From: Fibrobacter succinogenes
GTDB taxonomy: Bacteria; Fibrobacterota; Fibrobacteria; Fibrobacterales; Fibrobacteraceae
NCBI RefSeq assembly: GCF_902779965.1
Contig: NZ_CACZDK010000036.1
Span: 1 to 57,667 of the forward strand
Length of the DNA stretch: 57,667 bases
Direction of reading: 5' to 3'
Positions 443 through 23,400 of the stretch are shown in pieces. Both the position numbers and the translations under genes were made by a program. Under the pieces are notes generated by a model, which made no database searches, was not told the origin of the DNA, and was given only the letters and a program-made list of their open reading frames with translations. The stretch's first letter is position 1. The number at the start of each line of letters is the position of its first letter.

Positions 443-1273
443 ATGAAAGAAATATTGGAATATACGAGCTATCGCCAGTATATTGCGGATTACTACGCCG
501 ATAAAAAAGCGAAATCTGCGTTTACTTGGCAAGAGTTCGCTGACGAAGCCGGATTCTCTTCACGTGTTTATCTGAAATACGTGAGTGAAGGCCGCTTTAA
601 CTTGAGCGAAACGGCGACAGTTCGCGTTGCAGAGGCCATGCGCTTGGTGGACTACGAACGTGAATATTTCGCGGAAATGGTCCGGTTCGACCATGCGAAA
701 ACGGATGCCGAAAAGAAGGCCGCCTTTAACAACATGCTTGCCATTGGTGATGCGCACAAGGCTAAAATCTTGGAAGGCGATTCGTTCCGCTTTTTTGAAA
801 GCTGGAAAAATCCCGTTATCCGTGAACTCGCTCCATCAATGCCTGGCGCAAAACCGCTTGCGCTTGCTCATGCCTGCCGTCCAGAAATTACCGCCGCCGA
901 AGTCAGCGATGTGCTGAACTTTTTGGTCAAGGGCGGATTCCTTGAAAAAAATGACGAAGGCAACTATGTGCAAACGAATAAATCCTTGACGACGGGGCGC
1001 ATGGAAGTGACGCCGTTGGCGGTCCGCACGATGCACCGTCAAATGGGCGAACTCGCGCTCGAAGCGATCGAGGGTGTGGATCAGGATAAACGAAATTTCT
1101 CCGGTGTCACGTTTGGCATCACTAAAGAAGGCTACGATGAAATCGTGCAAGAAATTGCCGATTGCCGTAAAAGGGTCGTAGCCATTGCGAGAAAAAATGC
1201 CGCCACGGACGAAGTTTATCGTCTGAATATGCAGCTTTTCCCGCTGACGCAAAAACAAGATTTAAAAAAATAA
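443..1273 (+). CDS. TIGR02147-family putative regulator, module 1
   Basis: This 276-residue protein belongs to the TIGR02147/DUF4423 family, described first from Fibrobacter. Residues about 25-65 look like a Cro/CI-type helix-turn-helix (TWQEFADEAGFSS, then YLKYVSEGRFNLSE). The C-terminal region has the family block SFRFFESWKNPVIRELAPSM and a later MHRQMGELALEAIEG. There is no signal peptide, so it should be cytoplasmic. The start has a strong site (AAGGAGG, 433-439). The FISUMP lipoprotein follows 14 nt downstream in the same transcript. It is the most divergent of the four copies in its C-terminal third. DNA binding and control of the partner gene are inferences from the fold and gene order; no target is known. 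Confidence 0.9.
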   Translation: MKEILEYTSYRQYIADYYADKKAKSAFTWQEFADEAGFSSRVYLKYVSEGRFNLSETATVRVAEAMRLVDYEREYFAEMVRFDHAKTDAEKKAAFNNMLAIGDAHKAKILEGDSFRFFESWKNPVIRELAPSMPGAKPLALAHACRPEITAAEVSDVLNFLVKGGFLEKNDEGNYVQTNKSLTTGRMEVTPLAVRTMHRQMGELALEAIEGVDQDKRNFSGVTFGITKEGYDEIVQEIADCRKRVVAIARKNAATDEVYRLNMQLFPLTQKQDLKK

Positions 1274-1287
1274 ATAAGGAGGAATGT

Positions 1288-2943
1288 ATGAATTACTCAA
1301 AAATTAGCGGACAGTCTGTCTGCAAAATGGCGATGCTGCTCGCCTTTGTGTTCGCAGCGTGCTCGGAAAATAATGGCCCTGTTGCCGGTGGTACTGTCGA
1401 AGAAACTGGTTTGGAAAAAATTTCCCTTATTGGGCGTGCAATGCGGTTATCGCCTGCAGACAAAGATAAAGTGTTTGGGGGGTGGAGCAGTACTGCTAAA
1501 ATGGGCTCCATCATAAGAATGGCTGAACTCGATTCTGTTACGTTCGATACGACTGGTGTTGTTTATTATACAGAATGTGTAAATTCATCGGGAGAATTTA
1601 GCTTTGATAGTGTTTCGCTAAATAGTCCGTATGTTATGTTTGAACTTGCTCCTTACGCAGAAAATCCTGTGTATTGGTCTTGGAATGGTGTTTGGTCTTT
1701 TGATGATTATAATGCTTCGGAAGGGGTGTATGTGGCGACATATAGTGTCATTGTTGATGTTCGAGAAACGAGAGATATTGACATTAATGCAATGACTTAT
1801 TTGGAATCGGCTCGTATACTTTCTTTAGTGAAGCGGGGAAAGCGTTTTGCTGAAGCTAAGCGTCAGGCTGATAAGGAACTTCTTGATGATTTGGGTATGT
1901 ATGGAGATTCCTTTGATTTTGATAAGACTTCGTACGTTGAAAATAAAAATCATTTGTTCGTTTTAGATTACATTGAGGAAATGCTTTTTCAGTGGTCTGA
2001 AAAAAATTCAACGTTGTTGATTACTCAAGCGTTTGCCAATATGGGATCTTTGTCTGCGGTAGATTCTATAAAACAATTCTTGGTCGAAAAAATTTATTGG
2101 ATGAAGAACAGCGAAGAATTTTCTGATAGTGTTAAGAATGTTTTGTATAACATTGTGGCTGGAATGCATGGACTTGGAAGATGTACTGCTCAAAATGAGG
2201 GGAAAGGTGTAGAAGTCTTTGGAAATCCGGATCGCTATATGAATGTTTACTGTTTGTCTGGGCAATGGACTGTTTTGAATGGTCGCTATAAAATGGCGGA
2301 AATAGTGCCTACTACAATAGGAACGTTGGTTGATAGTCGTGATGGCATGGTATATAAAACAGTGACGTTTGATATTGATGGTCTGCCTCAAACTTGGATG
2401 GCCGAAAACTTGAGATATCGTGATGAAAACGTCCAGCCGATGAATTACTTTGATCCGCACTATGTTTCTTTGCGTCAAAAATCACGTAATTTTGACTTTT
2501 TAGAGTATGTTGCTTCTTTGGATTCTGCATATTGGAATACGGTGTCTGTATATAAGGAACCTGAATTGGTTGGCTATGATTCGTTGAAAGTTGAGGGGGA
2601 ACATTTCCGGGGAATATGTCCAGAAGGGTGGCATGTCCCGACTTTGAAAGAATGGTCTCGTTTGCTGTATCTTTTGGAACAAGCGACGGGTGGTTGTGCT
2701 AATTATGGTTGTAGTGATGATTTCGTTGAAAATGAATATTTGGGTTATCATGCGTCGAAGTATTTACCCCAGGTTGGATTTGGAGATTATTCCTATGAAT
2801 CTTTCGCCTTTGTAGTCCAATCAACGGATCGATGGGAGTTGAAAGCTATTGAAATGGCGGGTTGGAATGTTGAGGTGATGTATGGTTGGGATACGTATCT
2901 GTGGCCTTATGGCTATTTCTCCTTCCGTTGTGTTCAGGACTAA
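1288..2943 (+). CDS. FISUMP-domain lipoprotein, module 1
   Basis: This 551-residue protein has a lipoprotein signal peptide ending in VFAAC, with Cys25 as the lipidation site, so it is probably membrane-anchored outside the cytoplasm. An N-terminal domain (about 45-180) has the pattern KMGSIIRMAELDS...DTTG...SPYVMFE seen in all four module lipoproteins. The C-terminal part (about 350-551) is a FISUMP domain: YKTVTFDIDGLPQTWMAENL, then CPEGWHVPTLKEW, ending in FRCVQD. Its N-terminus matches module 4 (KISGQ.VCKM) rather than modules 2 and 3. Codon use is more AT-rich and less regular than in the regulator upstream. The function of FISUMP domains is not established; a surface or periplasmic role is inferred from the anchor alone. 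Confidence 0.88.
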   Translation: MNYSKISGQSVCKMAMLLAFVFAACSENNGPVAGGTVEETGLEKISLIGRAMRLSPADKDKVFGGWSSTAKMGSIIRMAELDSVTFDTTGVVYYTECVNSSGEFSFDSVSLNSPYVMFELAPYAENPVYWSWNGVWSFDDYNASEGVYVATYSVIVDVRETRDIDINAMTYLESARILSLVKRGKRFAEAKRQADKELLDDLGMYGDSFDFDKTSYVENKNHLFVLDYIEEMLFQWSEKNSTLLITQAFANMGSLSAVDSIKQFLVEKIYWMKNSEEFSDSVKNVLYNIVAGMHGLGRCTAQNEGKGVEVFGNPDRYMNVYCLSGQWTVLNGRYKMAEIVPTTIGTLVDSRDGMVYKTVTFDIDGLPQTWMAENLRYRDENVQPMNYFDPHYVSLRQKSRNFDFLEYVASLDSAYWNTVSVYKEPELVGYDSLKVEGEHFRGICPEGWHVPTLKEWSRLLYLLEQATGGCANYGCSDDFVENEYLGYHASKYLPQVGFGDYSYESFAFVVQSTDRWELKAIEMAGWNVEVMYGWDTYLWPYGYFSFRCVQD

Positions 2944-2971
2944 TTTTGTTCTAAAGCTTTAGAAATATTTG

Positions 2972-2980
2972 TTAGGAGGA
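2972..2980 (+). promoter_or_regulatory. Orphan Shine-Dalgarno-like site, module 1
   Basis: TTAGGAGGA has full complementarity to the 16S rRNA tail but no start codon or gene follows. The terminator hairpin begins six bases later. The same arrangement occurs in all four modules. Confidence 0.6.
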
Positions 2981-2985
2981 AAAAG

Positions 2986-3013
2986 GAAGACGGGGTTCGC
3001 CCCGTCTTCTTTT
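2986..3013 (+). terminator. Intrinsic terminator of module 1
   Basis: GAAGACGGGG (2986-2995), a TTCG tetraloop, and CCCCGTCTTC (3000-3009) form a perfect 10-bp stem followed by a T run. Confidence 0.9.
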
Positions 3014-3019
3014 ATGCAT

Positions 3020-3238
3020 TGTCTTCCCGGATTTATTCTGGGATCGGCATCTCGTCATTGCACTTCGTGCATGACCTATCGGCTCAACCATGCCAAAATG
3101 CAAGCATTTTGTCGCGGCACTCGCCTCATTGTCATTCCTCTTCGAGGCATGACTGCGGCGGGAATCAAATGCGAGTCCACAAGTGTCCTCTCGCTTGATT
3201 CCCTTGTATGTCATTCCGGCCCCCGAGCCGGAATCCCC
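3020..3238. repeat. Cluster of small extragenic palindromes
   Basis: Several short inverted repeats are stacked between convergent genes: a GTCAT-GCAC-TTC-GTGC-ATGAC hairpin around 3055-3074, a GTCATTCCTCTTCGAGG unit near 3130, and ATTCCGGC...GCCGGAAT around 3211-3236. Related units recur in other intergenic regions of the window, notably at 23,298-23,400. Confidence 0.7.
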
Positions 3239-4474
3239 TCAGAGTCTTAGTTTTAGTCCCGCAATTTGGCTTTCAAGTCTTGCTGCTTCTGCGTGTAGCT
3301 TTTGCAGAAACGCCGCTGTGGCGGGTGAATTGGCATCCTGTATGCGGTGATTCGCGCTTTTCAAGAACTTTTCGACTTGCTTGATGTCTTCGCGTGTTTT
3401 CTCATTGCAATAAGTTTCTGCCATGCGCTCGAAAATATATTCTTCGGCGGTTTTGGACAAGTGAATCATGTCGCTGTCGTAAAAGCGGTAGTCGCGCAAC
3501 TCGTCCATCACAATCTCGTAACTCGGGAAGTGTTCGACAAACGCTGGATTTTGTTGAGACTGCCCCGGATTTGTTACTGTGGTGTTGCGCGAAGCGCATG
3601 TTTGGTTCGCCTCGTCAATCTCTTGAATGACTTTATTAATTGCAAGTTGCAGCGTTGCCTTCGAAAGCGTGTTGTTGTGCGCGCCATCGCTCATGTGCCG
3701 TAACGGCGAAACCGTAAAGACGATATGAAATTCGTGACTTTCGCTTTTCCTGTTTTCCGTTGAATGGTCTTTTTCAACGCAGTCATTCTCGACCGAAGGG
3801 AGGGAATCCATCTTTTCTTGTTGCGGCCTTTGCGTAGGGGATCCATTAAATTTTGGTCGAAGGATCCTGTCATTTTTAATCTTGCATAATCCTTCCACAA
3901 TTTCACGAATTGCCGTCGCGGCTTCATCCACCGAAATCATCTGGCGCTCAAATAATCTCGGATTTTGCCTGTGGCAATTTGAAACCACCTGTCCGCGTGT
4001 TGTCTCGTTTGAACTTTCTCCATTTTCACAAGTTGATTTCAAAAAGTACACGAAGGCAGTCCCGAACGTGATGAATACAACATCGGCCTTTTGCAAAAAT
4101 TCACGTGCTTGCGTTGCTGCGTTATTCAGCTTGGCAATGCATTCCTCGCGAGTCTTGGCAGAAAGCGATCCATGGGCATCCCAGCAATGCCAAGATGCGC
4201 CGCAGTGTTCGGAGTCCGCATGATTTCCAAGACGCATGTCCTGAAAAACATCTTCTTCGTCGAACAGTTTCCCGTCGGCGATAGCCTTGATCTGTTTCGC
4301 CAACGAAAGCGGATTGTACACCGTCCCGAACGGATTAGCCAAAACTTTAAATTTCCGCGATGCAAATTGTGCCGAAATATTGTCCGCAAAACACGATCCG
4401 AAAAAAGCGAGTCGCGATTTGTAATCAATTTGCCAACTGAACGCGGGAATATCAATTTTCGTGAAAAAGTTCAT
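3239..4474 (-). CDS. GSCFA-domain family protein
   Basis: This 411-residue protein shows the family-naming motif at residues 26-30 (FFGSCFADNI), the block FITFGTAFVY, and the TVSPLRHMSDG block expected of GSCFA proteins (PF08885), which are thought to be related to SGNH/GDSL-type esterases. No signal peptide is seen. Residues about 203-231 form a polar, low-complexity stretch between the helix ending VEGLCKI and the strand HIVFTVSP. At DNA level this stretch carries palindromic sequences also found in intergenic regions (3782-3809, 3855-3867), which suggests an in-frame insertion. The gene converges on module 1 and is divergent from module 2. The substrate is unknown; an acyl- or carbohydrate-esterase role is only an inference. 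Confidence 0.85.
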   Translation of the reverse strand: MNFFTKIDIPAFSWQIDYKSRLAFFGSCFADNISAQFASRKFKVLANPFGTVYNPLSLAKQIKAIADGKLFDEEDVFQDMRLGNHADSEHCGASWHCWDAHGSLSAKTREECIAKLNNAATQAREFLQKADVVFITFGTAFVYFLKSTCENGESSNETTRGQVVSNCHRQNPRLFERQMISVDEAATAIREIVEGLCKIKNDRILRPKFNGSPTQRPQQEKMDSLPSVENDCVEKDHSTENRKSESHEFHIVFTVSPLRHMSDGAHNNTLSKATLQLAINKVIQEIDEANQTCASRNTTVTNPGQSQQNPAFVEHFPSYEIVMDELRDYRFYDSDMIHLSKTAEEYIFERMAETYCNEKTREDIKQVEKFLKSANHRIQDANSPATAAFLQKLHAEAARLESQIAGLKLRL

Positions 4475-5047
4475 GAAAAAAAATGTAGTAAAAAACTCTG
4501 TTTTTCAAAAAATGACGATTTTTACGTAATAATGACTGTGATTTTTTTATTCCTTACGTAATTTTTTAATGTTGTTCGAAATATTTTGATGGAAAAAGGG
4601 CTCTTGATGAGCTTTTCTTCTGATTTTACCAACAAATCTCTTCGTTTTGGGTGCGAAAGACGGCGCTTGGTGTCGCTTTGCGGGCTTTTATTCTAAAATT
4701 TGATTAATTTATCTTTAATTTTACGTAAAAAACTATCTAATTTCAAATTTTTTACGTAAAAAAATGACCAAAAGAGGATTTTTAGTGTGGGGAACCGTTG
4801 TTTGCGCGGCATTAGCGCGACATTTGCGTGTTTTCGCGCTTTTCCAGCGTATTTCTCGTTACGTCTTGAATATCCTAATTCATATTGTGAAAATTGATAA
4901 AATTCTAATTCTTTATAAAAATCTTTAAAATTTTGCGTAAAAATTGAATTTTATATTGTAAAACTGTTGATTTTTGAAAATTAATGAATTATATTTTGAA
5001 ACATCGAACAGTCAGTCCGGAAAAGAGACTGAGTGTAAGGAGGAAAA
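4475..5047. other. 573-bp AT-rich intergenic region with TTTTACGTAAAA palindromes
   Basis: No gene is seen. The palindrome TTACGTAA occurs at 4522-4529, 4554-4561, 4721-4728 and 4752-4759. The last two are extended (TTTTACGTAAAA, then TTTTTTACGTAAAAAAA). A further GCGTAAAAATTG lies near 4935. The module 2 promoter is at the right end. Confidence 0.75.
4967..4995 (+). promoter_or_regulatory. Promoter of module 2
   Basis: TTGATT (4967-4972) and TATATT (4990-4995) are separated by 17 bp. The position relative to the regulator start is similar to the promoters of modules 3 and 4. Confidence 0.7.
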
Positions 5048-5881
5048 ATGAAAGATATACTTGAATACAGGGACTACCGCCAGTATATCGCAGACTACTA
5101 TGCCGATCGAAAGGCTAAGTCTGCGTTTTCTTGGCAGGAGTTCGCTACTGCGGCGGGTTTCTCGTCGCCGGTTTACCTTAAATATGTGAGCGAAGGTCGC
5201 TTCAACTTGAGTGAGGAAGCTGCGATTCGCACGGCGCGTTCCATGCATCTCGCTGATTTCGAATGCGACTTCTTTGTGGAAATGGTCAAGTTTTGCCATG
5301 CAAAGACCGATGACGAAAAACGTTCTGCGTTCAGCAATATGCTCTCTATTGCAGAATCTCGCAAAATGAAAATTCTGGAGGGCGAGTCTTTCCGCTTTTT
5401 CGAAGACTGGAAAAATCCGGTGCTCCGCGAACTCGCTCCCGCGATGCCAGGTGCGAAGCCTTTGGCTCTTGCTCATGCCTGTCGTGAAAAAATCAGTGCT
5501 GCCGAAGTGAGCGAGACTTTGAATTTCTTGGTCAAGGCGGACCTTCTGAAAAAAGACAAAGACGGAAATTACGAACAAACGGATAAAGTCGTGACGACCG
5601 GTCCGATGGAAGTGACTCCACTGGCGGTTCGCGGAATGCATCGCCAAATGGGAGAATTCGCGTTGGACGCTATCGAGGGCGTGCCGCAGGACGAACGCCA
5701 TTTCTCGGGCCTTACGCTTGGCATTACCCGTGAGGCTTATCAGGAAATCGTGCAGAAAATAGCTGAGTTCCGTAAAGAAATCATCGAGATTGCAACACGT
5801 GAACCTGCAACAGACGAAGTTTACCGTCTGAACGTGCAGTTCTTCCCGATGACAAATAAAAGTTTAAATAAAAAGGATTAA
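5048..5881 (+). CDS. TIGR02147-family putative regulator, module 2
   Basis: This 277-residue paralogue of the module 1 regulator has the same opening (MKDILEYRDYRQYIADYYAD), helix-turn-helix-like region (SWQEFATAAGFSS, VYLKYVSEGRFNLSE) and C-terminal blocks (SFRFFEDWKNPVLRELAPAM; MHRQMGEFALDAIEG). The start is fixed by TAAGGAGGAAAA directly upstream. The stop codon TAA is itself the first part of the next gene's site (TAAGGAGG), so translation of the lipoprotein is probably coupled. It is closer to the module 3 and 4 copies in the segment after MHRQMGE (ERHFSGLTLGIT) than to module 1. Regulation of the adjacent lipoprotein is inferred, not shown. Confidence 0.9.
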   Translation: MKDILEYRDYRQYIADYYADRKAKSAFSWQEFATAAGFSSPVYLKYVSEGRFNLSEEAAIRTARSMHLADFECDFFVEMVKFCHAKTDDEKRSAFSNMLSIAESRKMKILEGESFRFFEDWKNPVLRELAPAMPGAKPLALAHACREKISAAEVSETLNFLVKADLLKKDKDGNYEQTDKVVTTGPMEVTPLAVRGMHRQMGEFALDAIEGVPQDERHFSGLTLGITREAYQEIVQKIAEFRKEIIEIATREPATDEVYRLNVQFFPMTNKSLNKKD

Positions 5882-5891
5882 GGAGGAAACT

Positions 5892-7811
5892 ATGAATAAC
5901 TTAAATCGTAACACGCTTGTGCGTGATTTCATCGGGGCGGTGTTCTGCTTGATGATGGCGTTTGCTCTTCTCATGATGTATTCGGGTTGCTCCGAAGACA
6001 ATTCTCCGATAAACGGTGCTCATGGTGGTGCCGCCGAAGAACAGGGCGTGTATGCTTTGGCGGGGCGAGCTGGCGATGTGTATCCTAAAGTGATGGGATT
6101 GGATGGGCTTGACTCAGTTTCTGGAATTAATGATGGACGTTTGGAGGTACCTGAAGGAACTGTCGTCGCTGTTTACGAATTGAATCCCCTAACTCTTGAA
6201 CCGAATGGTCGTGTTTTTTTGGATACCATCGACAATGGTGAAGGTCGTTTTGCGTTTGAAAATATTTTTTTGGGTAGCCCGTATGTATTGATTGAAATAC
6301 GGGATTCTTGCATTGCGTTTGATTGTCAAGAACGTGGTGTGTGGGGCTCTTCGTCTTATCAAACGTATGTTGAAGTTCCATGCGAATCCGTGATTGATTC
6401 CTCTTGGGGAGGAATTTGGCCTACCGATTGTGGCATTTTGGATTCTACCAAATATCCGGTTTCTTTAGGCGCTATAGTTGATGTACGGAATTACCAAGAA
6501 TCAGGTTCTTCGAAAATAAGCATTAACACATTAAGTTATCTGAAAATCCCGTTGTTGAAGAAATACTTTGCCGAAGGGATGTCTTTTGCTGCGGCGGGTA
6601 AAAAGGCGGAACAAGAAATCTTGGAAAACTTTGGCATTTATGAAGATTTGGGAGAATTTGAAAATGCTGAAAATGTAAATGGTGAATTGTCTTATGTTTT
6701 GCGGATGATTGTTCGAATTATAACTCTTGGTGATGCTTTCGTTTATAATTTTCCGATACCTTTTGATCGTTATTATTACATAACTTTTGCCGCAGCCAAT
6801 GCTTTTGGGAGTGACATGGAGCAGGTTTATTTGAATAAGATAAAGATGCTTGATTATGGAATAGGCTATTATTTACAAGAAATTGGTGTTGGTCGATGCA
6901 CAGAATCTCGTGAAAATGAAGTCTATAAAATACTAGGGCATGAGTATATGTCGGTTGTTTGCCGTTCCGGTAAGTGGAAACCGGGGCGTAAAAAGTTAGA
7001 ATACTCTAGCGGAGTGATGACGGACGCGCGCGATGGCAAAACATATAAGACTGTCACGTATAATTGGGGCGATATTACGCAGACGTGGATGGCCGAAAAT
7101 CTGAACTATACAGATGCGACATCTAGTAAAACGTGCTGGGATGGTGATTCTTCTTGTGATTATGGCCGTTATTATACGTGGCGAACTGCGATGGATTTGG
7201 ATTGGTCTTCTATAAAAATGACGTCTCGTATTCATGAATTTATATGGAATGATGCCGACAGTACTTATAAGGATAAATGGGAAACCGTGGCTGTAGAGGA
7301 TATGTGTTTGAAGAAAGGTTATCTTGAAGGCGCAAGTGATAGTGTAAAGTATGCTTATTGCTATGTAAAATCACCGGATGGCAAATGTGTGGCTAATGAT
7401 ACCGCAGATAACGTTTACAGTTATTGTTATAGAAAGTATGATGGTTGTCACTTGGATTTGTCGGAATCTGTTTTCCGAACAAAGCCTGTTGCTTATCGCG
7501 GTGTGTGCCCGGAAGGATGGAGAATCCCCAATAAGGAAGATTGGGAAATCTTGGGGCAAAATGTTGCCGCACGAGGAGCCTCGTTTACCGATGTCTATGG
7601 AAGCGGTTTCGGATATACTGCGCCGATGAGCGACGTCAGGTATGCTTTGGTTCCTAGCGAGAATGATGTAGGCCGTATCTCCTTTACGGCTTTTGTTGGA
7701 AGTGAGAACGTTTCTATAGATATGTATATGAATTTTACAGATGCTCCTAGGAATGCACTCCCGTTCTTTGTGCTAAATAATGAAATGTTTGTTCGCTGCA
7801 TCAAAAATTGA
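5892..7811 (+). CDS. FISUMP-domain lipoprotein, module 2
   Basis: This 639-residue lipoprotein has a long signal sequence ending MMYSGC (Cys about 34), unlike the short VFAAC type of modules 1 and 4 but like module 3. The N-terminal domain keeps the pattern of a typed value followed by DTIDNGEGRFAFENIFLGSP. It is enlarged by a Cys-containing insertion around residues 140-195. A conserved helical segment follows (KYFAEGMSFAAAGKKAEQEI). The FISUMP domain starts near residue 377 (DGKTYKTVTYNWGDITQTWM), with CYRKYDGCH and CPEGWRIPNKEDW further on, and ends in FVRCIKN. The CRSGKW and CIKN cysteines recur in its paralogues and may form disulfides. Function is unknown; surface exposure is inferred. 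Confidence 0.88.
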   Translation: MNNLNRNTLVRDFIGAVFCLMMAFALLMMYSGCSEDNSPINGAHGGAAEEQGVYALAGRAGDVYPKVMGLDGLDSVSGINDGRLEVPEGTVVAVYELNPLTLEPNGRVFLDTIDNGEGRFAFENIFLGSPYVLIEIRDSCIAFDCQERGVWGSSSYQTYVEVPCESVIDSSWGGIWPTDCGILDSTKYPVSLGAIVDVRNYQESGSSKISINTLSYLKIPLLKKYFAEGMSFAAAGKKAEQEILENFGIYEDLGEFENAENVNGELSYVLRMIVRIITLGDAFVYNFPIPFDRYYYITFAAANAFGSDMEQVYLNKIKMLDYGIGYYLQEIGVGRCTESRENEVYKILGHEYMSVVCRSGKWKPGRKKLEYSSGVMTDARDGKTYKTVTYNWGDITQTWMAENLNYTDATSSKTCWDGDSSCDYGRYYTWRTAMDLDWSSIKMTSRIHEFIWNDADSTYKDKWETVAVEDMCLKKGYLEGASDSVKYAYCYVKSPDGKCVANDTADNVYSYCYRKYDGCHLDLSESVFRTKPVAYRGVCPEGWRIPNKEDWEILGQNVAARGASFTDVYGSGFGYTAPMSDVRYALVPSENDVGRISFTAFVGSENVSIDMYMNFTDAPRNALPFFVLNNEMFVRCIKN

Positions 7812-7836
7812 ATTTGATCCCCAAAAAACATGAGTG

Positions 7837-7963
7837 TAAGGAGGAAATGTGGGACAGGAGACGGGCTTCGGCCCGCCTTCTTTTTTTTGCTTTGGTCGAA
7901 GATGGTGTCATGGCGGACTTGATCCGCCATCTCTATACCTATTTGCTAATAACTAAAAACTAG
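7837..7963 (+). other. Orphan Shine-Dalgarno with a 38-codon mini-ORF over the terminator, module 2
   Basis: TAAGGAGGAAATG (7837-7849) is a complete ribosome binding site and start codon. The frame from 7847 reads MWDRRRASARLLFF and ends at 7963, running through the terminator stem. Module 3 has the same arrangement with a similar peptide start. Modules 1 and 4 keep the AGGAGGA but have no ATG. The similarity of the two peptides is explained by the shared hairpin, so I do not call a gene. Confidence 0.35.
7857..7888 (+). terminator. Intrinsic terminator of module 2
   Basis: GGAGACGGGC, loop TTCG and GCCCGCCTTC form a 10-bp stem with one A-C mismatch, followed by eight T residues. Confidence 0.9.
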
Positions 7964-8070
7964 TAACTATAAACTATCTTATCTGTATCACAGAAAATGC
8001 AAAAAATTTTATAAAAATAACAAAAATGCTTAAATTTAAATAAAAACGTAAAATATTTATCCTTAAACTG
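7889..8070. repeat. ATGGCGGA hairpin and AT-rich spacer
   Basis: ATGGCGGA (7910-7917) and TCCGCCAT (7923-7930) form an 8-bp hairpin, which also occurs at 23,276-23,296. A run of CTA/AAC-type short repeats follows (AATAACTAAAAACTAGTAAC, 7948-7967), and then AT-rich DNA up to the module 3 promoter. No gene is seen. Confidence 0.65.
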
Positions 8071-8099
8071 TTGACTTTTTAAATTTTTTGTTTTATATT
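8071..8099 (+). promoter_or_regulatory. Promoter of module 3
   Basis: TTGACT (8071-8076) and TATATT (8094-8099) with a 17-bp spacer form a near-consensus pair. The leader that follows contains ACGGCTCGGAC, close to ACGGCACGGAC in module 4, and both leaders end in GCTGTTTGTG before the ribosome binding site. Confidence 0.8.
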
Positions 8100-8158
8100 T
8101 CAGGTTGTAAACGGCTCGGACTTTAAAATCAAGAGGCTGTTTGTGTTAGGAGGAATAA

Positions 8159-8989
8159 ATGAAGGATGTACTAGAGTACACGAACTATCACCAGTACATC
8201 GCAGATTACTATGCCGAAAAAAAGGCGAAATCTGCGTTTACTTGGCAAACTTTTACGCGAGCGGCGGGCTTCTCGTCGCCTGTGTTCCTGAAATACGTGA
8301 GCGAAGGCCGCTCGAATCTGAGCGAAGATACTGCGTATCAAGTAGCCAATGCCATGGGGCTTGCTGGCTACGAACAAGAATATTTTGCCGAAATGGTCAA
8401 GTTCGACCATGCCAAAACGGATGATGAAAAAAAATCTGCGTTCAACAGGATGCTTGCCATTGCCGATGTTCATAAAGTCAGAATTATTGAAGGTGATTCT
8501 TTCCGCTATTTCGAAAGCTGGAAAAATCCGGTGCTCCGCGAACTTGCTCCTTCAATGCCGGGGGCTAAGCCCCTGGCACTTGCCCGTGCTTGCCGCCCCA
8601 AAATTTCTGCTGCAGAAGTCAGCGAATCGCTCAGCTTTTTGGTCAAGGCCAATTTGCTTCAAAAGGACAAAAGCGGAAATTACGTACAGACTGAAAAATC
8701 TGTGACTACCGGCCCCATGGACGTGACGCCCGTGGCTGTTCGCGGAATGCATCGTCAAATGGGTGAATTTGCGCTTGATGCCATTGAAGGCGTGCCGCAA
8801 AATGAACGCCATTTCTCGGGCCTTACGCTTGGCATTACTCAAAGCGCCTACGATGAAATTGTTCAAGAAATTGCGGAATTTCGTAAAAGGATTGTAGCGA
8901 TTGCAACAAGGGATGATGATGCGGATGAAGTTTATCGCTTGAACGTGCAGTTTTTCCCGATGACAAAAAAGAGTGTTAATAAGGATTAG
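8159..8989 (+). CDS. TIGR02147-family putative regulator, module 3
   Basis: This 276-residue paralogue begins MKDVLEYTNYHQYIADYYAE. The helix-turn-helix-like segment reads TWQTFTRAAGFSS then FLKYVSEGRSNLSE, and the C-terminal blocks SFRYFESWKNPVLRELAPSM and MHRQMGEFALDAIEG are kept. The start is set by TTAGGAGGA ten bases upstream. Its stop TAG overlaps the AGGAGG of the lipoprotein gene. Most differences from the other copies fall in the recognition-helix neighbourhood (residues 45-65), so the copies could bind different targets. That is an inference. Confidence 0.9.
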   Translation: MKDVLEYTNYHQYIADYYAEKKAKSAFTWQTFTRAAGFSSPVFLKYVSEGRSNLSEDTAYQVANAMGLAGYEQEYFAEMVKFDHAKTDDEKKSAFNRMLAIADVHKVRIIEGDSFRYFESWKNPVLRELAPSMPGAKPLALARACRPKISAAEVSESLSFLVKANLLQKDKSGNYVQTEKSVTTGPMDVTPVAVRGMHRQMGEFALDAIEGVPQNERHFSGLTLGITQSAYDEIVQEIAEFRKRIVAIATRDDDADEVYRLNVQFFPMTKKSVNKD

Positions 8990-8998
8990 GAGGATATC

Positions 8999-10912
8999 AT
9001 GAAGTTTCCAAGACGAAATTCGTTGGTGAGTGATTTTATTGGAGCGGCGTTCTGTTTGTTTATGGCGTTTGCTCTGGTCATGATGTATGCGGGCTGCTCC
9101 GAAGATGTTGATCGGTCTCCGTTGGCGCGTGACGGTGGTTCTACGGAAGAAACGGCTTTGCTTGAAAATATTACGGTAAAAGGCTTGGCAATGGTGAGCC
9201 CGCGGTATGAATCTCTGGATAGTACGCAATTGGAGTTTGCTTTGGGTGGAGTGCGTAAAGGCTCTATAGTGACCCTTTACGAATTGGATTCTCTTTCGTT
9301 GGATACAACGGGAGTTGCTTATGCGGATACTATCGACAATGATGAAGGGCTCTTTAATATTCAAGTGGAGGCGTTGAAATCCCCGTATGTGTTGATAGCG
9401 GCTGATATGGGGAAAATCGTGAATGTGAATGATCAAGGTATTGGCTATAGCGAAAATAATCGTGTTTTTAGAGCCGTTGCTGATGTTCGTGATAGTGCCC
9501 CTATTGTTGTTGACGTGATTTCTGATTTGTTGTATGCTCGCGTTCGTTTTTTGGTTAAATTGGATGTTGATTTTGTACAGGCGATGGATCGAGCAAAACG
9601 TGAATTGTTTGATGCGATTGGGGTCTATGATGTGGTTCCAGATTATAAAGATTTGGAAAGTCTAGATTATTATGCGATGTTGTCTGTGATTGATGCTATT
9701 GGCCTCCGTTCGGGAGTTGATGTTTTTGCGCAAAGGGGATCTTTTGCGGAATATCAATGGTTAAGTAGTAAGATTACTGATAAAACAACTGAATTGATAA
9801 GGGTGCTGAGTATTCCGCAGGCTTTCTATGACGGAATGGGGGCTCGGGGCGCTAGAATGTATCAAACGATAAAACTTTACGAAAAATATCTTGCAGGAAT
9901 TTTATCTGCAATGATAGGGGTGGGGCGTTGCACGACGTCGTTAGAAGGGCAAGTGCTTGGTATTCCCGATAGTATTAGAAATATGAAAGAATTCAAAATT
10001 GTTTGTCGCTCGGAAAGTTGGCACTTGACTTTTGATAAACATGTAAGTCATTCGTTTGGGACGATGACGGATGCTCGTGATGGAAGAACGTACAAGACGG
10101 TAACAATTGATTTTGGTGAAAAAACGGCGACTTGGATGGCCGAAAACTTGAATTACAATGGCGCTATGCTTGATACTACATATTGCTATGACGATAAAGC
10201 TGAAAATTGTGAAATCTTTGGCCGTCAGTATGATTGGCACACGGCGGTGGGATTAGGCAAATCTGTTTTGCGGAATTGGTCGTATGTGAATATGGATGCA
10301 TGTCGGGATGCGTTGTCAGATATATATATGAGGAAAGATTCACAACCTTATGATTCTGCATATGTTCAAAGATGTATAGAACATTTTGAAAATACGGATC
10401 CGTTGGCCAAGGAAAAGTGTGAGTCTTATGGTTATGGTGAGAATGTAGATACGGTATTTTTTAATCAGTGGATTACTGAAATGTGTAATGCTTATATGGG
10501 GCCGAATAATTGGCATGTTTATTTGTCTAATGTTGATTTAGATAGCATTGCTGTGAGTCAGGGCGTTTGCCCTGGGGGTTGGCGAATCCCCACTTTCGAT
10601 GATTGGGAAGAGTTCTTTAAAATTATCGAAGACGAATGGGGTAAAATTGATGTGGGCACGTATCTCATGGCGACTCCGTCAATCGAAGAGCCGTTTGGAC
10701 TGGGTATATACAATACGGCTAAAGCGGAACTGGATGAAGAATATGGAATGCGGGTTGGTGTAGAGAATAGTACGTATTTGTTTATTCCTACGAATAGCGA
10801 AAGATCAAGACGCTTTAGCCTCTCTTTCATAGGGTATACGTTCAATATTTATAACGTTATGGCGTTATCAAGTTATTATCGGAGGATGTTTGTCCGCTGC
10901 ATCAAGAATTGA
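8999..10912 (+). CDS. FISUMP-domain lipoprotein, module 3
   Basis: This 637-residue lipoprotein has the same type of signal sequence as module 2 (SDFIGAAFCLFMAFALVMMY, then AGC). The N-terminal domain shows GSIVTLYELDSLSLDTTG, DTIDNDEGLF and LKSPYVLIAA. Residues about 150-300 are largely helical and poorly conserved among the paralogues. The FISUMP domain begins near residue 360 (DGRTYKTVTIDFGEKTATWM), contains CYDDKAENCEIFGRQYDW and CPGGWRIPTFDDWEEF, and ends FVRCIKN. It is co-transcribed with the module 3 regulator, with its ribosome binding site overlapping the regulator stop. The biochemical function is unknown. Confidence 0.88.
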   Translation: MKFPRRNSLVSDFIGAAFCLFMAFALVMMYAGCSEDVDRSPLARDGGSTEETALLENITVKGLAMVSPRYESLDSTQLEFALGGVRKGSIVTLYELDSLSLDTTGVAYADTIDNDEGLFNIQVEALKSPYVLIAADMGKIVNVNDQGIGYSENNRVFRAVADVRDSAPIVVDVISDLLYARVRFLVKLDVDFVQAMDRAKRELFDAIGVYDVVPDYKDLESLDYYAMLSVIDAIGLRSGVDVFAQRGSFAEYQWLSSKITDKTTELIRVLSIPQAFYDGMGARGARMYQTIKLYEKYLAGILSAMIGVGRCTTSLEGQVLGIPDSIRNMKEFKIVCRSESWHLTFDKHVSHSFGTMTDARDGRTYKTVTIDFGEKTATWMAENLNYNGAMLDTTYCYDDKAENCEIFGRQYDWHTAVGLGKSVLRNWSYVNMDACRDALSDIYMRKDSQPYDSAYVQRCIEHFENTDPLAKEKCESYGYGENVDTVFFNQWITEMCNAYMGPNNWHVYLSNVDLDSIAVSQGVCPGGWRIPTFDDWEEFFKIIEDEWGKIDVGTYLMATPSIEEPFGLGIYNTAKAELDEEYGMRVGVENSTYLFIPTNSERSRRFSLSFIGYTFNIYNVMALSSYYRRMFVRCIKN

Positions 10913-10936
10913 ATTTGATCCCCCAAAACATGAGTG

Positions 10937-11087
10937 TAAGGAGGAAATGGGGGACAGAAGACGGGCTGCGGCCCGCCTTCTTTTTGTATTCGTCGTTCTC
11001 GATCGAAGAGAGGGAACCCGTTGTTTCTCGCAGTCATCCTCGCTTACGCGAGTAACCGTTAAAATGTATGTCGCCATGCCTGTATAG
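10937..11087 (+). other. Orphan Shine-Dalgarno with a 46-codon mini-ORF over the terminator, module 3
   Basis: TAAGGAGGAAATG ends at 10,949. The frame from 10,947 reads MGDRRRAAARLLFVFV and stops at 11,087. About 40 bp upstream of the hairpin are also shared with module 2 (GAATTTGATCCCC, then ACATGAGTGTAAGGAGG). The coding nature is doubtful because the conserved peptide start coincides with the hairpin. Confidence 0.35.
10957..10985 (+). terminator. Intrinsic terminator of module 3
   Basis: GAAGACGGGC, loop TGCG and GCCCGCCTTC form a stem with one A-C mismatch, followed by TTTTT. Confidence 0.9.
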
Positions 11088-11130
11088 GCTTATGTCATCC
11101 TCGCGCAGGCGAGGATCCATTATTTCTCGT
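10990..11130. repeat. Tandem GTCAT-type palindromic elements
   Basis: Three related units follow each other: 10,992-11,019 (GTCGTTCTCGATCGAAGAG...), about 11,033-11,056 (GTCATCCTCGCTTACGCGAG) and 11,094-11,117 (GTCATCCTCGCGCAGGCGAG, then GATCC). The first matches 24 of 28 bases of a segment inside the GSCFA coding sequence at 3782-3809. The rest of the gap to 11,338 is AT-rich and holds the module 4 promoter. Confidence 0.75.
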
Positions 11131-11250
11131 TTTACCGTTTTGTATTGAGAGCAAATACTTTGTTTGTATTATTGAAAATTCTAAAATTTTTATCAATTAT
11201 TGAATTTTGTATAATTTTAACTAAAAACGCTAAAAATTTATGGTGAAGTA

Positions 11251-11279
11251 TTGACTTTTTGAAATTTTGAATTTATATT
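11251..11279 (+). promoter_or_regulatory. Promoter of module 4
   Basis: TTGACT (11,251-11,256) and TATATT (11,274-11,279) have a 17-bp spacer. Distances to the regulator start are the same as in module 3, and the leader shares ACGGCACGGAC and GCTGTTTGTG. Confidence 0.8.
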
Positions 11280-11338
11280 TGAATTTGAAAACGGCACGGA
11301 CCGTAAAGTCGAGATGCTGTTTGTGCTAGGAGGAAACA

Positions 11339-12172
11339 ATGAAAGATGTACTAGAATACACTAGTTATCGTCAGTATATTGCGGACTATTACGCTGAGAA
11401 AAAGGCGAAGTCTGCGTTTACTTGGCAAGAATTCACGCGGGCGGCAGGCTTCTCCTCGCCGGTTCATCTTAAATATGCAAGTGAAGGCCGCTTGAACTTG
11501 AGCGATGCGGCTGCATTGCGTGTGGCGCAGGCCATGCATCTTGTCGATTTTGAACAGGAATATTTTTGCGAGATGGTCAAGTTTGACAACGCGAAAACAG
11601 ATGCCGAAAAGAAGGCCGCGTTTAGCAAAATGCTTTCCATCGCTGATGCGCATAAGGCGAAAATCATTGAGGGCGATTCGTTCCGCTATTTTGAAAGCTG
11701 GAAAAATCCAGTGCTCCGTGAACTTGCTCCAGCGATGCCTGGCGCAAAACCTCTTACGCTTGCAAAAACATGTCGCCCGGCAATTACTGCAGCTGAGGTT
11801 AGCGAGACTTTGAATTTTTTGGTCAAGGCGGGATTACTCAAAAAGGACGAAGAAGGACGCTACGTGCAAACGGACACCTTTGTGACGACGGGGCCAATGG
11901 AAGTGACTCCTGTAGCTGTTCGCGGAATGCACCGCCAAATGGGCGAGTTTGCGGTAGATGCCGTTGAAGGCGTTGCTCAGGATGAACGCCATTTCTCTGG
12001 CCTTACGATGGGCCTTACGCATAAAGCGTATGATGAAATCGTTCAAGAACTCGATGCGTGCCGCAAACGCATTGCCACAATTGCGACAAGGGATGCTGAA
12101 GTCGATGACGTGTATCGCTTGAATTTTCAGCTTTTCCCGCTTACAAATAAAAGCTTAAATAAAAAGGTCTAG
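11339..12172 (+). CDS. TIGR02147-family putative regulator, module 4
   Basis: This 277-residue paralogue opens MKDVLEYTSYRQYIADYYAE. The helix-turn-helix-like region is TWQEFTRAAGFSS, then HLKYASEGRLNLSD, where Y-A replaces the Y-V of the other copies. The C-terminal blocks SFRYFESWKNPVLRELAPAM and MHRQMGEFAVDAVEG are present. The start follows CTAGGAGGAAAC. The TAG stop overlaps the AGGAGG of the next gene. It is the last regulator of the array. Control of the adjacent lipoprotein is inferred from the strict pairing. Confidence 0.9.
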   Translation: MKDVLEYTSYRQYIADYYAEKKAKSAFTWQEFTRAAGFSSPVHLKYASEGRLNLSDAAALRVAQAMHLVDFEQEYFCEMVKFDNAKTDAEKKAAFSKMLSIADAHKAKIIEGDSFRYFESWKNPVLRELAPAMPGAKPLTLAKTCRPAITAAEVSETLNFLVKAGLLKKDEEGRYVQTDTFVTTGPMEVTPVAVRGMHRQMGEFAVDAVEGVAQDERHFSGLTMGLTHKAYDEIVQELDACRKRIATIATRDAEVDDVYRLNFQLFPLTNKSLNKKV

Positions 12173-12181
12173 GAGGAAACT

Positions 12182-13987
12182 ATGAATTATTTAAAAATTA
12201 GCGGACAGCTTGTCTGCAAAATGTTGGTGCTGCTTGCTTTTGCATTTGCGGCTTGTTCCGATAATCAGGTTTCGGGCGGTGTTACCGAAGAAACACGAGT
12301 TTATGCATTGTCTGGCCGAGTGGGCGATGTGTGTCCAAAACTGCTGAAGGTTGCGGATTCGTCGGGTGTGTACGTTGATACTGTAAAATATGAGGGCTCA
12401 GTGTTTGCCGAAAAAGGATCGATTATAACCGTTTATGAATTGGATTCTTTGACTCTCGATACGACAGGTCGTTTTTTTGTAGATACAGTGGATAACGATA
12501 GTGGCCACTTTGAGTTTAAAGAAATGAATCTAAGAAGCCCTTATGTATTAATTGGAGAGCAAGTTAGCTCTCCTGATGTCCGCGATAAACGAGGTACTAT
12601 AGTTTATACGTATTATAACTACAGTGCGATAGTAGATTTGCGGAATGTGAAAAACGTAAGTATTAGCACTTTGACGACGATGAAAGTTCCACTTTTACAA
12701 AAATATTTTGCAGAAGGAAATTCTTTTGCTCAAGCAAGTAAAATGGCTGAGCGTGAAATTCTTGAAGAGTTCGGCGTGTACGAGGATCTTGGTGCATTTG
12801 AAAAAATGAATGAGGATGGTTCAGAATTGCCTTATGTTAATACAATGGCTCGTTTAAGTGAATCAGATATACGCTCGGAATTGAACTTTGAAACCCAGCT
12901 CTATTATTCTTCGCCAAAGGCGTTTTCTAATCGAAAATCTGCTGTGGAACAATTTTATTTAAATTCCATGAAGATGATAAAGTATATGGTAAATTACTTG
13001 GCTAATAAAGATGGTTTAGGTCGATGTGATGAGGCGCATGAAAATGTTTCTGGGGATGTTGGAGCTGCTAATACAAGGCTTATTACTATCGTATGTCGTT
13101 CTGGAAGTTGGACTCTTGGATTTAAAACGGTTGCTCATACGAAAGGGACAATGACGGATGAGCGAGATGGAAAGATTTATAAGACGGTGACGTATAATTG
13201 GGGTGACGTTTCTCAGACTTGGATGGCTGAAAACCTGAGTTTCACGGATACGACGTCATCGTTGATTGACAGCGCGTTGAAATCGAATTTGTCAGGGAGA
13301 ATATCTTGTTTTTTGCCTGGGTATGGTTGGGAATGGTTTGAACAATATGAATCGGGTTGCGATCCGGATGATTATGTGTATCAGTGGAAAGCCGCTATGA
13401 ATATTGGCGATGGTGATGTGAATGTTTATTCCATCGATTCTTTGGGCGATACCACATTTGTTGACAAGGCGTATTTGGATTCTCTCGAGCATTCTTATGA
13501 TTGGACCTCGACCTATTTTGATTGGACCTGGAACTATGATGATTTTGTAATTTCCTCGAATAGGAACTCTTACCAGGGGGTTTGTCCGGATGGCTGGAGG
13601 ATTCCGACGGCTGCTGATTGGATGACCTTGCTGCAAAATTTGGGCAATGAATATGATGTTGATTATGAATACGTTGTTCCAACCCTATATGATGAAACGG
13701 CGACTGGCTTTGGATTGAATGCGCATGCTAAAGCTTGGTTTGATGAAACCTTGCAAATTGTTCGATTCCAATATAATGGTTTCTCTAATGCTTTTGTGAT
13801 AGTCGATAAGCCGTTGTATATCGCTGAATTCTTTGATCGGTGGAGTCCTCGTTGTGGCTTTGGAATTTATTCTTGTGGTGTTGTTGACCATACCTTTATT
13901 TTTGGGTATTGGAATTTGCACTTGATTGATGATGATTACCATAGGTCGACAACAAAAACCGCTTTTGTCCGTTGCATCAAAAACTAA
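12182..13987 (+). CDS. FISUMP-domain lipoprotein, module 4
   Basis: This 601-residue lipoprotein has the signal peptide MNYLKISGQLVCKM...AFAAC, nearly the same as module 1. The N-terminal domain has ITVYELDSLTLDTTG, DTVDNDSGHFEF and LRSPYVLI. The helical segment QKYFAEGNSFAQASKMAERE and the following YEDLGAFE resemble module 2 rather than module 1, so the protein looks mosaic. The FISUMP domain starts near residue 330 (DGKIYKTVTYNWGDVSQTWM), includes CPDGWRIPTAADWMTL, and ends FVRCIKN. Function is unknown. Confidence 0.88.
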   Translation: MNYLKISGQLVCKMLVLLAFAFAACSDNQVSGGVTEETRVYALSGRVGDVCPKLLKVADSSGVYVDTVKYEGSVFAEKGSIITVYELDSLTLDTTGRFFVDTVDNDSGHFEFKEMNLRSPYVLIGEQVSSPDVRDKRGTIVYTYYNYSAIVDLRNVKNVSISTLTTMKVPLLQKYFAEGNSFAQASKMAEREILEEFGVYEDLGAFEKMNEDGSELPYVNTMARLSESDIRSELNFETQLYYSSPKAFSNRKSAVEQFYLNSMKMIKYMVNYLANKDGLGRCDEAHENVSGDVGAANTRLITIVCRSGSWTLGFKTVAHTKGTMTDERDGKIYKTVTYNWGDVSQTWMAENLSFTDTTSSLIDSALKSNLSGRISCFLPGYGWEWFEQYESGCDPDDYVYQWKAAMNIGDGDVNVYSIDSLGDTTFVDKAYLDSLEHSYDWTSTYFDWTWNYDDFVISSNRNSYQGVCPDGWRIPTAADWMTLLQNLGNEYDVDYEYVVPTLYDETATGFGLNAHAKAWFDETLQIVRFQYNGFSNAFVIVDKPLYIAEFFDRWSPRCGFGIYSCGVVDHTFIFGYWNLHLIDDDYHRSTTKTAFVRCIKN

Positions 13988-23268: not shown

Positions 23269-23275
23269 AACTTAG

Positions 23276-23400
23276 ATGGCGGATCAGGTCCGCCATGACG
23301 TCATTCCTCTTCGAAGCTTGACTGCTGCGGTTATCCAATATGCACGCAAGTGTTCATGCTGTACAACCCTGCACGTCATTCCGGCCTCTGGCCGGAACCT
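23276..23400. repeat. Extragenic palindromes: ATGGCGGA hairpin and GTCATTCC units
   Basis: ATGGCGGA (23,276-23,283) pairs with TCCGCCAT (23,289-23,296) and may end the operon on the left. GTCATTCCTCTTCGAAGC follows (from about 23,299), then GTCATTCCGGCC...GGCCGGAA (about 23,373-23,398), the same kinds of unit as at 3125-3236. Confidence 0.7.

Follow-up and report, generated by a model that had tools for sequence, protein, structure and literature searches.

CGTC-tagged REP repeats within a GSCFA protein gene of Fibrobacter succinogenes, and recurrent filling of the same protein loops across the genus

The CGTC-tagged REPs (Di Nocera 2013, PMC3733652) are recognised by an unpaired tag at one end (CGTC, in many cases TGTC or CCTC), complementary AT at the base of an 8–9 bp stem that compensatory changes preserve from unit to unit, a short loop of 4–5 nt and a short unpaired tail with the consensus CCA, and they are dispersed and mostly intergenic, with some copies inside ORFs and no dedicated unit-flanked transposase. 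They have been listed for five phyla, that of Fibrobacter not being among them, and the ORFs that carry them include uvrA, a pseudouridine synthase and others, with recB of two Xanthomonas species as the only case in which about the same site is occupied (PMC3733652). The Rickettsia elements RPE-4 and RPE-6, i.e. short palindromic repeats found both intergenically and in frame in unrelated protein genes, were assigned to CGTC-4 and CGTC-1, respectively (PMC3733652). The GTAG REPs with RAYT transposases are likewise small dispersed hairpins tagged at one end.

The window analysed here, 57,667 nt of a Fibrobacter succinogenes genome (G000; 4.09 Mb in 76 contigs), contains a 411-aa GSCFA family gene at 3239–4474 on the reverse strand (Pfam PF08885, E-value 9.6e-65, matched in two stretches). 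Within this ORF, the forward-strand 28-mer GTCATTCTCGACCGAAGGGAGGGAATCC at 3782–3809 was identical in 24 of 28 positions to 10,992–11,019 (forward strand), a copy of the same REP subfamily that is intergenic, flanked by one ORF that ends at 10912 and another that starts at 11339. When the window was simulated five times under a first-order Markov model, the best match was 19/28, and dinucleotide-preserving shuffles gave no match at up to three mismatches. The genome as a whole held 16 copies of the 28-mer at this threshold, against none for the reversed pattern. Direct comparison, simulation and genome copy count thus all uphold the match as first reported in a preliminary description of this DNA.

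The intact unit extends over 3782–3810, with GTC tag, AT-started imperfect stem and CCA tail, and is read in antisense as MDSLPSVEND. It is accompanied by a piece that the preliminary description had missed, the tail half of a second unit (GCGTAGGGGATCCATTA, 3832–3848, forward strand), whose other sample copies, sought as GTAGGGGATCC, were all tails of GTCATYC units; GCGTAGGGGATCC (3832–3844, common to the other copies up to 3848) lay behind a GTCATYC head in 4/4 sample copies with none in the reversed control, the head of the window copy being the neighbouring unit at 3782. The tail half of a third unit (GGTCGAAGGATCC) follows at 3855–3867, again on the forward strand, and is a tail word found behind GTCATYC heads in the sample. 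The preliminary description had taken 3855–3867 for the end of another unit, correctly so, since four of the five copies of TCGAAGGATCC in the 854 kb sample stood within 60 bp behind a GTCATYC head (reversed control 0). Furthermore, a degenerate REP-derived piece, EANQTCASRN, is located in a second loop of the protein (3584–3613, reverse strand), and matches EANQSCALRND (L027/L036) and ETQQSCASRND (L042/L100). The gene therefore includes one whole REP unit and two tail halves in its first loop, and a degenerate piece in the second. The residue range given earlier, about 203–231, is about right, the whole unit corresponding to residues 222–231 and one tail piece to about 203–207, and the inserted stretch is indeed REP-derived, although it is not one element but an accumulation of three REP pieces and further inserted sequence.

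Repeat units were counted in an 854 kb sample of the genome, taken in stretches, by head-tail patterns that follow the unit anatomy (GTC tag, AT-started stem, short loop, AT, CCA-like tail); these replaced a strict hairpin scan that was too noisy (92 matches versus 39 and 19 in controls). About 102 intact units were obtained, compared with two in the reversed sequence. Four fully paired inner bases were present in 46 of 248 head-tail pairs when 9.1 were expected from re-dealt arms, without any stem requirement in the pattern, and the stems therefore covary (CCTC/GAGG, TCTC/GAGA, GCCC/GGGC, TCCC/GGGA). The related subfamily pattern GTCATYCYCGACN{2,9}GGGAGGGRATCC gave 16 copies and its control none, and the unit type GTCATTGCGAGCCGAAGGCGAAGCAATCC, i.e. 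GTCATTGCGAG-N-GCGAAGCAATCC, was dispersed in 38 of the 80 genomes of the genus (controls 0), two of its listed copies being within GSCFA genes (G039 C5:195262 and G071 C74:6623). In the window, an intergenic REP hairpin, GTCATTCCGGCCCCCGAGCCGGAATCCC, is situated directly downstream of the GSCFA stop codon (3210–3237, forward strand; −8.0 kcal/mol, z −4.3), and another intergenic unit, GTCATCCTCGCGCAGGCGAGGATCCA, is located at 11094–11119 on the same strand. REP-like hairpins were also seen at 7907–7933 (GTCATGGCGGACTTGATCCGCCATCTC) and, as a reverse-strand near copy with 90% complementarity, at 23273–23299.

The units of the sample overlapped ORFs in 27 cases, many of these on spurious ORFs, and about eight, with the spurious ones not counted, were in credible genes. 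In-frame units were found in genes for a UvrA-like protein, a FAD-dependent oxidoreductase, a fumarate-reductase-like flavoprotein, a RluB-like pseudouridine synthase, FeoB and an uncharacterised 369-aa protein, so that the search for the element inside other genes of the same genome, proposed in the preliminary description, was productive.

On this anatomy the window element belongs to the CGTC-tagged REP superfamily, an assignment built on the whole set of units and not on the window copy alone. The GTC of the tag was present in 16/16 copies, preceded by C or T in 12, by A in three, including the window copy (AGTC in place of CGTC), and by G in one. The AT pair at the stem base is retained in the window unit (GTC-AT ... 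AT-CC), a minority of copies having AACC or GTCC instead, and the tail reads AATCCA at 3805–3810. The stem of the window copy, in which mismatches separate paired runs of 6 and 2 bp around a loop of 4 nt, departs from the 8–9 bp of the described superfamily, whereas elsewhere in the genome units with stems of 8–10 bp occur; on the whole, stems and loops are more variable in Fibrobacter. Its predicted hairpin is weak (−1.8 kcal/mol) and folds no better than shuffled sequence, and hence the palindromic character claimed for the element holds for the family, in which compensatory changes conserve the stem, while the window copy itself is an imperfect palindrome. As in the described repeats, the units are dispersed, mostly intergenic and without a unit-flanked transposase gene. 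The resemblance to the in-frame elements of Rickettsia suggested at the outset also stands, as RPE-4 and RPE-6 belong to this superfamily; here too, units are in frame in unrelated genes (GSCFA, UvrA-like, RluB-like) and absent by alignment from homologues, so that the likeness between these unrelated host lineages is more than superficial, being one of anatomy. The Fibrobacter units differ from GTAG REPs in having no GTAG tag, and the Y1 transposase genes of the genus have no REPs at their flanks.

The first loop covers residues ~201–250 (3725–3874, reverse strand) and is a variable stretch that most orthologues do not have, and the second, a further recurrent insertion site, covers residues ~287–314 (3533–3616, reverse strand). 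In an AlphaFold model (nine sequences, mean pLDDT 77), pLDDT was below 50 at residues 205–245, between a helix (182–202) and a strand (249–255), and again at 297–307, which predicts that both loops are disordered segments between confidently modelled core elements. Residues S27, D335 and H338 were invariant in the GSCFA orthologues, and by analogy are probably catalytic residues of SGNH hydrolase type; Foldseek with the predicted model returned weak matches only, among them SGNH/GDSL-type hydrolases (4h08, 8tlb, 6nkd, 8gr2).

GSCFA was matched in 68 of 80 genus genomes, and all 68 orthologues were aligned; in public records the relatives are Fibrobacter species, chiefly rumen metagenome bins. 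The core was conserved and the two loops were strongly variable. Most sequences, among them the most divergent orthologues (L133, L134), a Fibrobacteraceae relative (L181) and a Prolixibacteraceae (Bacteroidota) homologue (L182), had a loop 1 of a few residues, and thus the alignment foreseen in the preliminary description found the stretch missing where an insertion should be missing, including from the distant homologues whose possession of it would have spoken against insertion. Loop 1 was REP-filled in 15 of 67 orthologues (example of the derived peptides: NDWIASPSARND) and loop 2 in 20 of 67, with at least 11 state changes for each on a tree built from 288 conserved columns without a support test, which gene exchange could distort. 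The units are accordingly dispersed repeats of the genome and the genus, and the loop, empty in the outgroups, has repeatedly gained and lost its filling, with units that differ from case to case. For such recurrent filling of the same loops over many species, the described CGTC repeats offer only the recB case of two Xanthomonas species for comparison. In loop 2 of one orthologue (L039, genome G018) a threefold direct repeat, ESRDDKAGFATESRDDKAGFAAESRDDMAG, was apparently derived from a REP and amplified in tandem.

Intact units numbered 31 in the 68 GSCFA orthologues, 14 in 19 UvrA-like and 11 in 18 RluB-like orthologues, with none in each reversed control; a few of the pattern matches overlap or are nested (e.g. 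L233, L125, L126), so that separate units are slightly fewer than these counts, and a few of the RluB-like units (L204, L205, L211) coincide with the very beginning of an open frame whose true start codon is uncertain. An ordinary hypervariable linker, the likeness of which to the intergenic element would be coincidental or a convergence of low-complexity sequence, is almost certainly the wrong explanation: two more variable loops of the protein (residues ~84–90 and ~149–156) do carry inserts without REP signature, but the copies of the 28-mer elsewhere in the genome and the intact canonical units in orthologues, both with zero in the controls, refute it for loops 1 and 2.

The same pattern of filling as in the two GSCFA loops was seen in loops or linkers of the UvrA-like and RluB-like proteins, where the same site was occupied by different REPs or heptamer-like repeats, depending on the species. 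The UvrA units were in both orientations and in several frames, and their survival is therefore not explained by one favoured reading frame. In almost all Fibrobacter species the inter-domain linker of the UvrA-like protein (L142 13473–15965; L220–L237) held a mix that differed each time, REPs and heptamer-like repeats appearing there as CHCEEQSDTAIH, VIASNAKQS, CHPERSAAKSKDL and DERRETNDERRE. Near-heptamer dispersed repeats (AGTAGGAAGTAGACAGTAG, TCTAAGTTCTAAG, CTAACCACCAACCACTAACC, GACGAGAGACGA) were the commonest 12-mers of the G000 sample, and extend into coding sequence beside REPs (RKSEVGSRKSEVG, DERRETKDER), e.g. in L145 6704–7813 and L152 15748–18708.

Most probably, then, and with considerable confidence on our part, the stretch in the GSCFA gene consists of copies of dispersed CGTC-superfamily REPs that entered a tolerant surface loop in frame. 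The REPs would spread as non-autonomous elements by means of some mobiliser, and local recombination between units could add, swap and delete pieces. Selection would remove the insertions at most coding positions, whereas in tolerant loops the inserts with a length divisible by three and no in-frame stop codon may survive as disordered, nearly neutral peptides. This account requires no function of the peptide, and nothing points to one. Against this reading, all 31 intact GSCFA units (L017–L134) were antisense to the gene, when neutral random insertion would mix the orientations as in UvrA, and the poor folding of the window unit does not favour it either.

The uniform orientation could also mean that the inserted peptide is selected for a function, e.g. 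as a binding segment or as an RNA hairpin controlling translation. This is highly improbable, as the peptide shows no sequence conservation from one species to another and many orthologues have no peptide at all; the hairpin version was rejected, the antisense RNA segment folding no better than its shuffles.

A single orientation would likewise be expected if one or two old insertions had been inherited, with the patchiness arising from losses and from exchange of GSCFA pieces between Fibrobacter species. The scatter on the tree was less than with shuffled labels for loop 2 (11 changes versus a mean of 17.4), and slightly less for loop 1 (11 versus 13.75), and a 75-nt composite insert in loop 2 was 100% identical over 73 nt between G042 (L042/L195) and G015 (L100/L196), when the surrounding DNA was about 77% identical. 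No further copy of this insert was found in these two genomes, and the identity points to either a recent insertion of the same element or local recombination, the latter being a further point against the preferred reading of in-frame REP entry. The fills, however, belong to different REP subfamilies (GTCATTGC.., GTCATTCCGAGCGGAGCGAGGAAT, GTCATTCTCGACC.., GTCATTCTGAGCGGAGCG..) that occupy separate clades, the divergent L125 and L126 among them, and we regard one or two inherited insertions as an unlikely source of the pattern, yet the least unlikely of the alternatives.

In regard to the mobiliser, the Y1 transposase domain PF01797 was not detected in the window genome, which is 97% complete. 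In the genus, the 93 kb surrounding 30 Y1 loci contained two REP units, where about 11 were expected at the density of G000. A Y1/RAYT mobiliser was thus rejected for G000 and is unsupported in the genus. The loop 1 junctions, in which GAC precedes TGGATT, had suggested that units insert next to GAC or TGAC. This target site was abandoned as unproven: many intergenic tails read CCAGT, so that GAC could belong to the element itself or represent a scar, and the empty sites of the outgroups had no GAC. Comparison of filled and empty syntenic stretches gave few clean events and no junction consensus, and for GSCFA no case came to light in which an empty loop had cleanly received a new insertion; movement of single units, as opposed to recombination between species, is therefore what we infer. 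Directed insertion, by a mobiliser that reads a short target and fixes the orientation of the unit, seems rather doubtful, less probable than the inherited insertions above and more so than a selected function. If true, it would account for the 31/31 antisense GSCFA units as well as for the repeated use of the same loops, and would make Fibrobacter a system for finding the CGTC REP mobiliser.

The kind of element is already known, and in the literature searched no paper was found on REPs in Fibrobacter; as far as that literature shows, the CGTC REPs in this genus and the density of repeated filling of the same loops are new. Protein-coding REPs are thereby extended to Fibrobacter, which offers a dense natural series, covering three proteins in dozens of species, of short repeats that come and go in the same protein loops. 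This brings two questions within reach, namely by what means CGTC REPs travel when no transposase is known for them, and how non-coding repeats give rise to new segments of proteins. Annotators should be aware that repeats are the source of peptides such as VIASNAKQS, CHPERSAAKSKD and WIASPSARND in the proteins of Fibrobacter.

The window additionally contains, at 443–13987, four tandem pairs of genes, each pair encoding a regulator-like protein of about 277 aa and a protein of about 550–640 aa with a lipoprotein-like N-terminus. Behind the second protein of the pairs there are GC hairpins with a T run, similar to one another and terminator-like.
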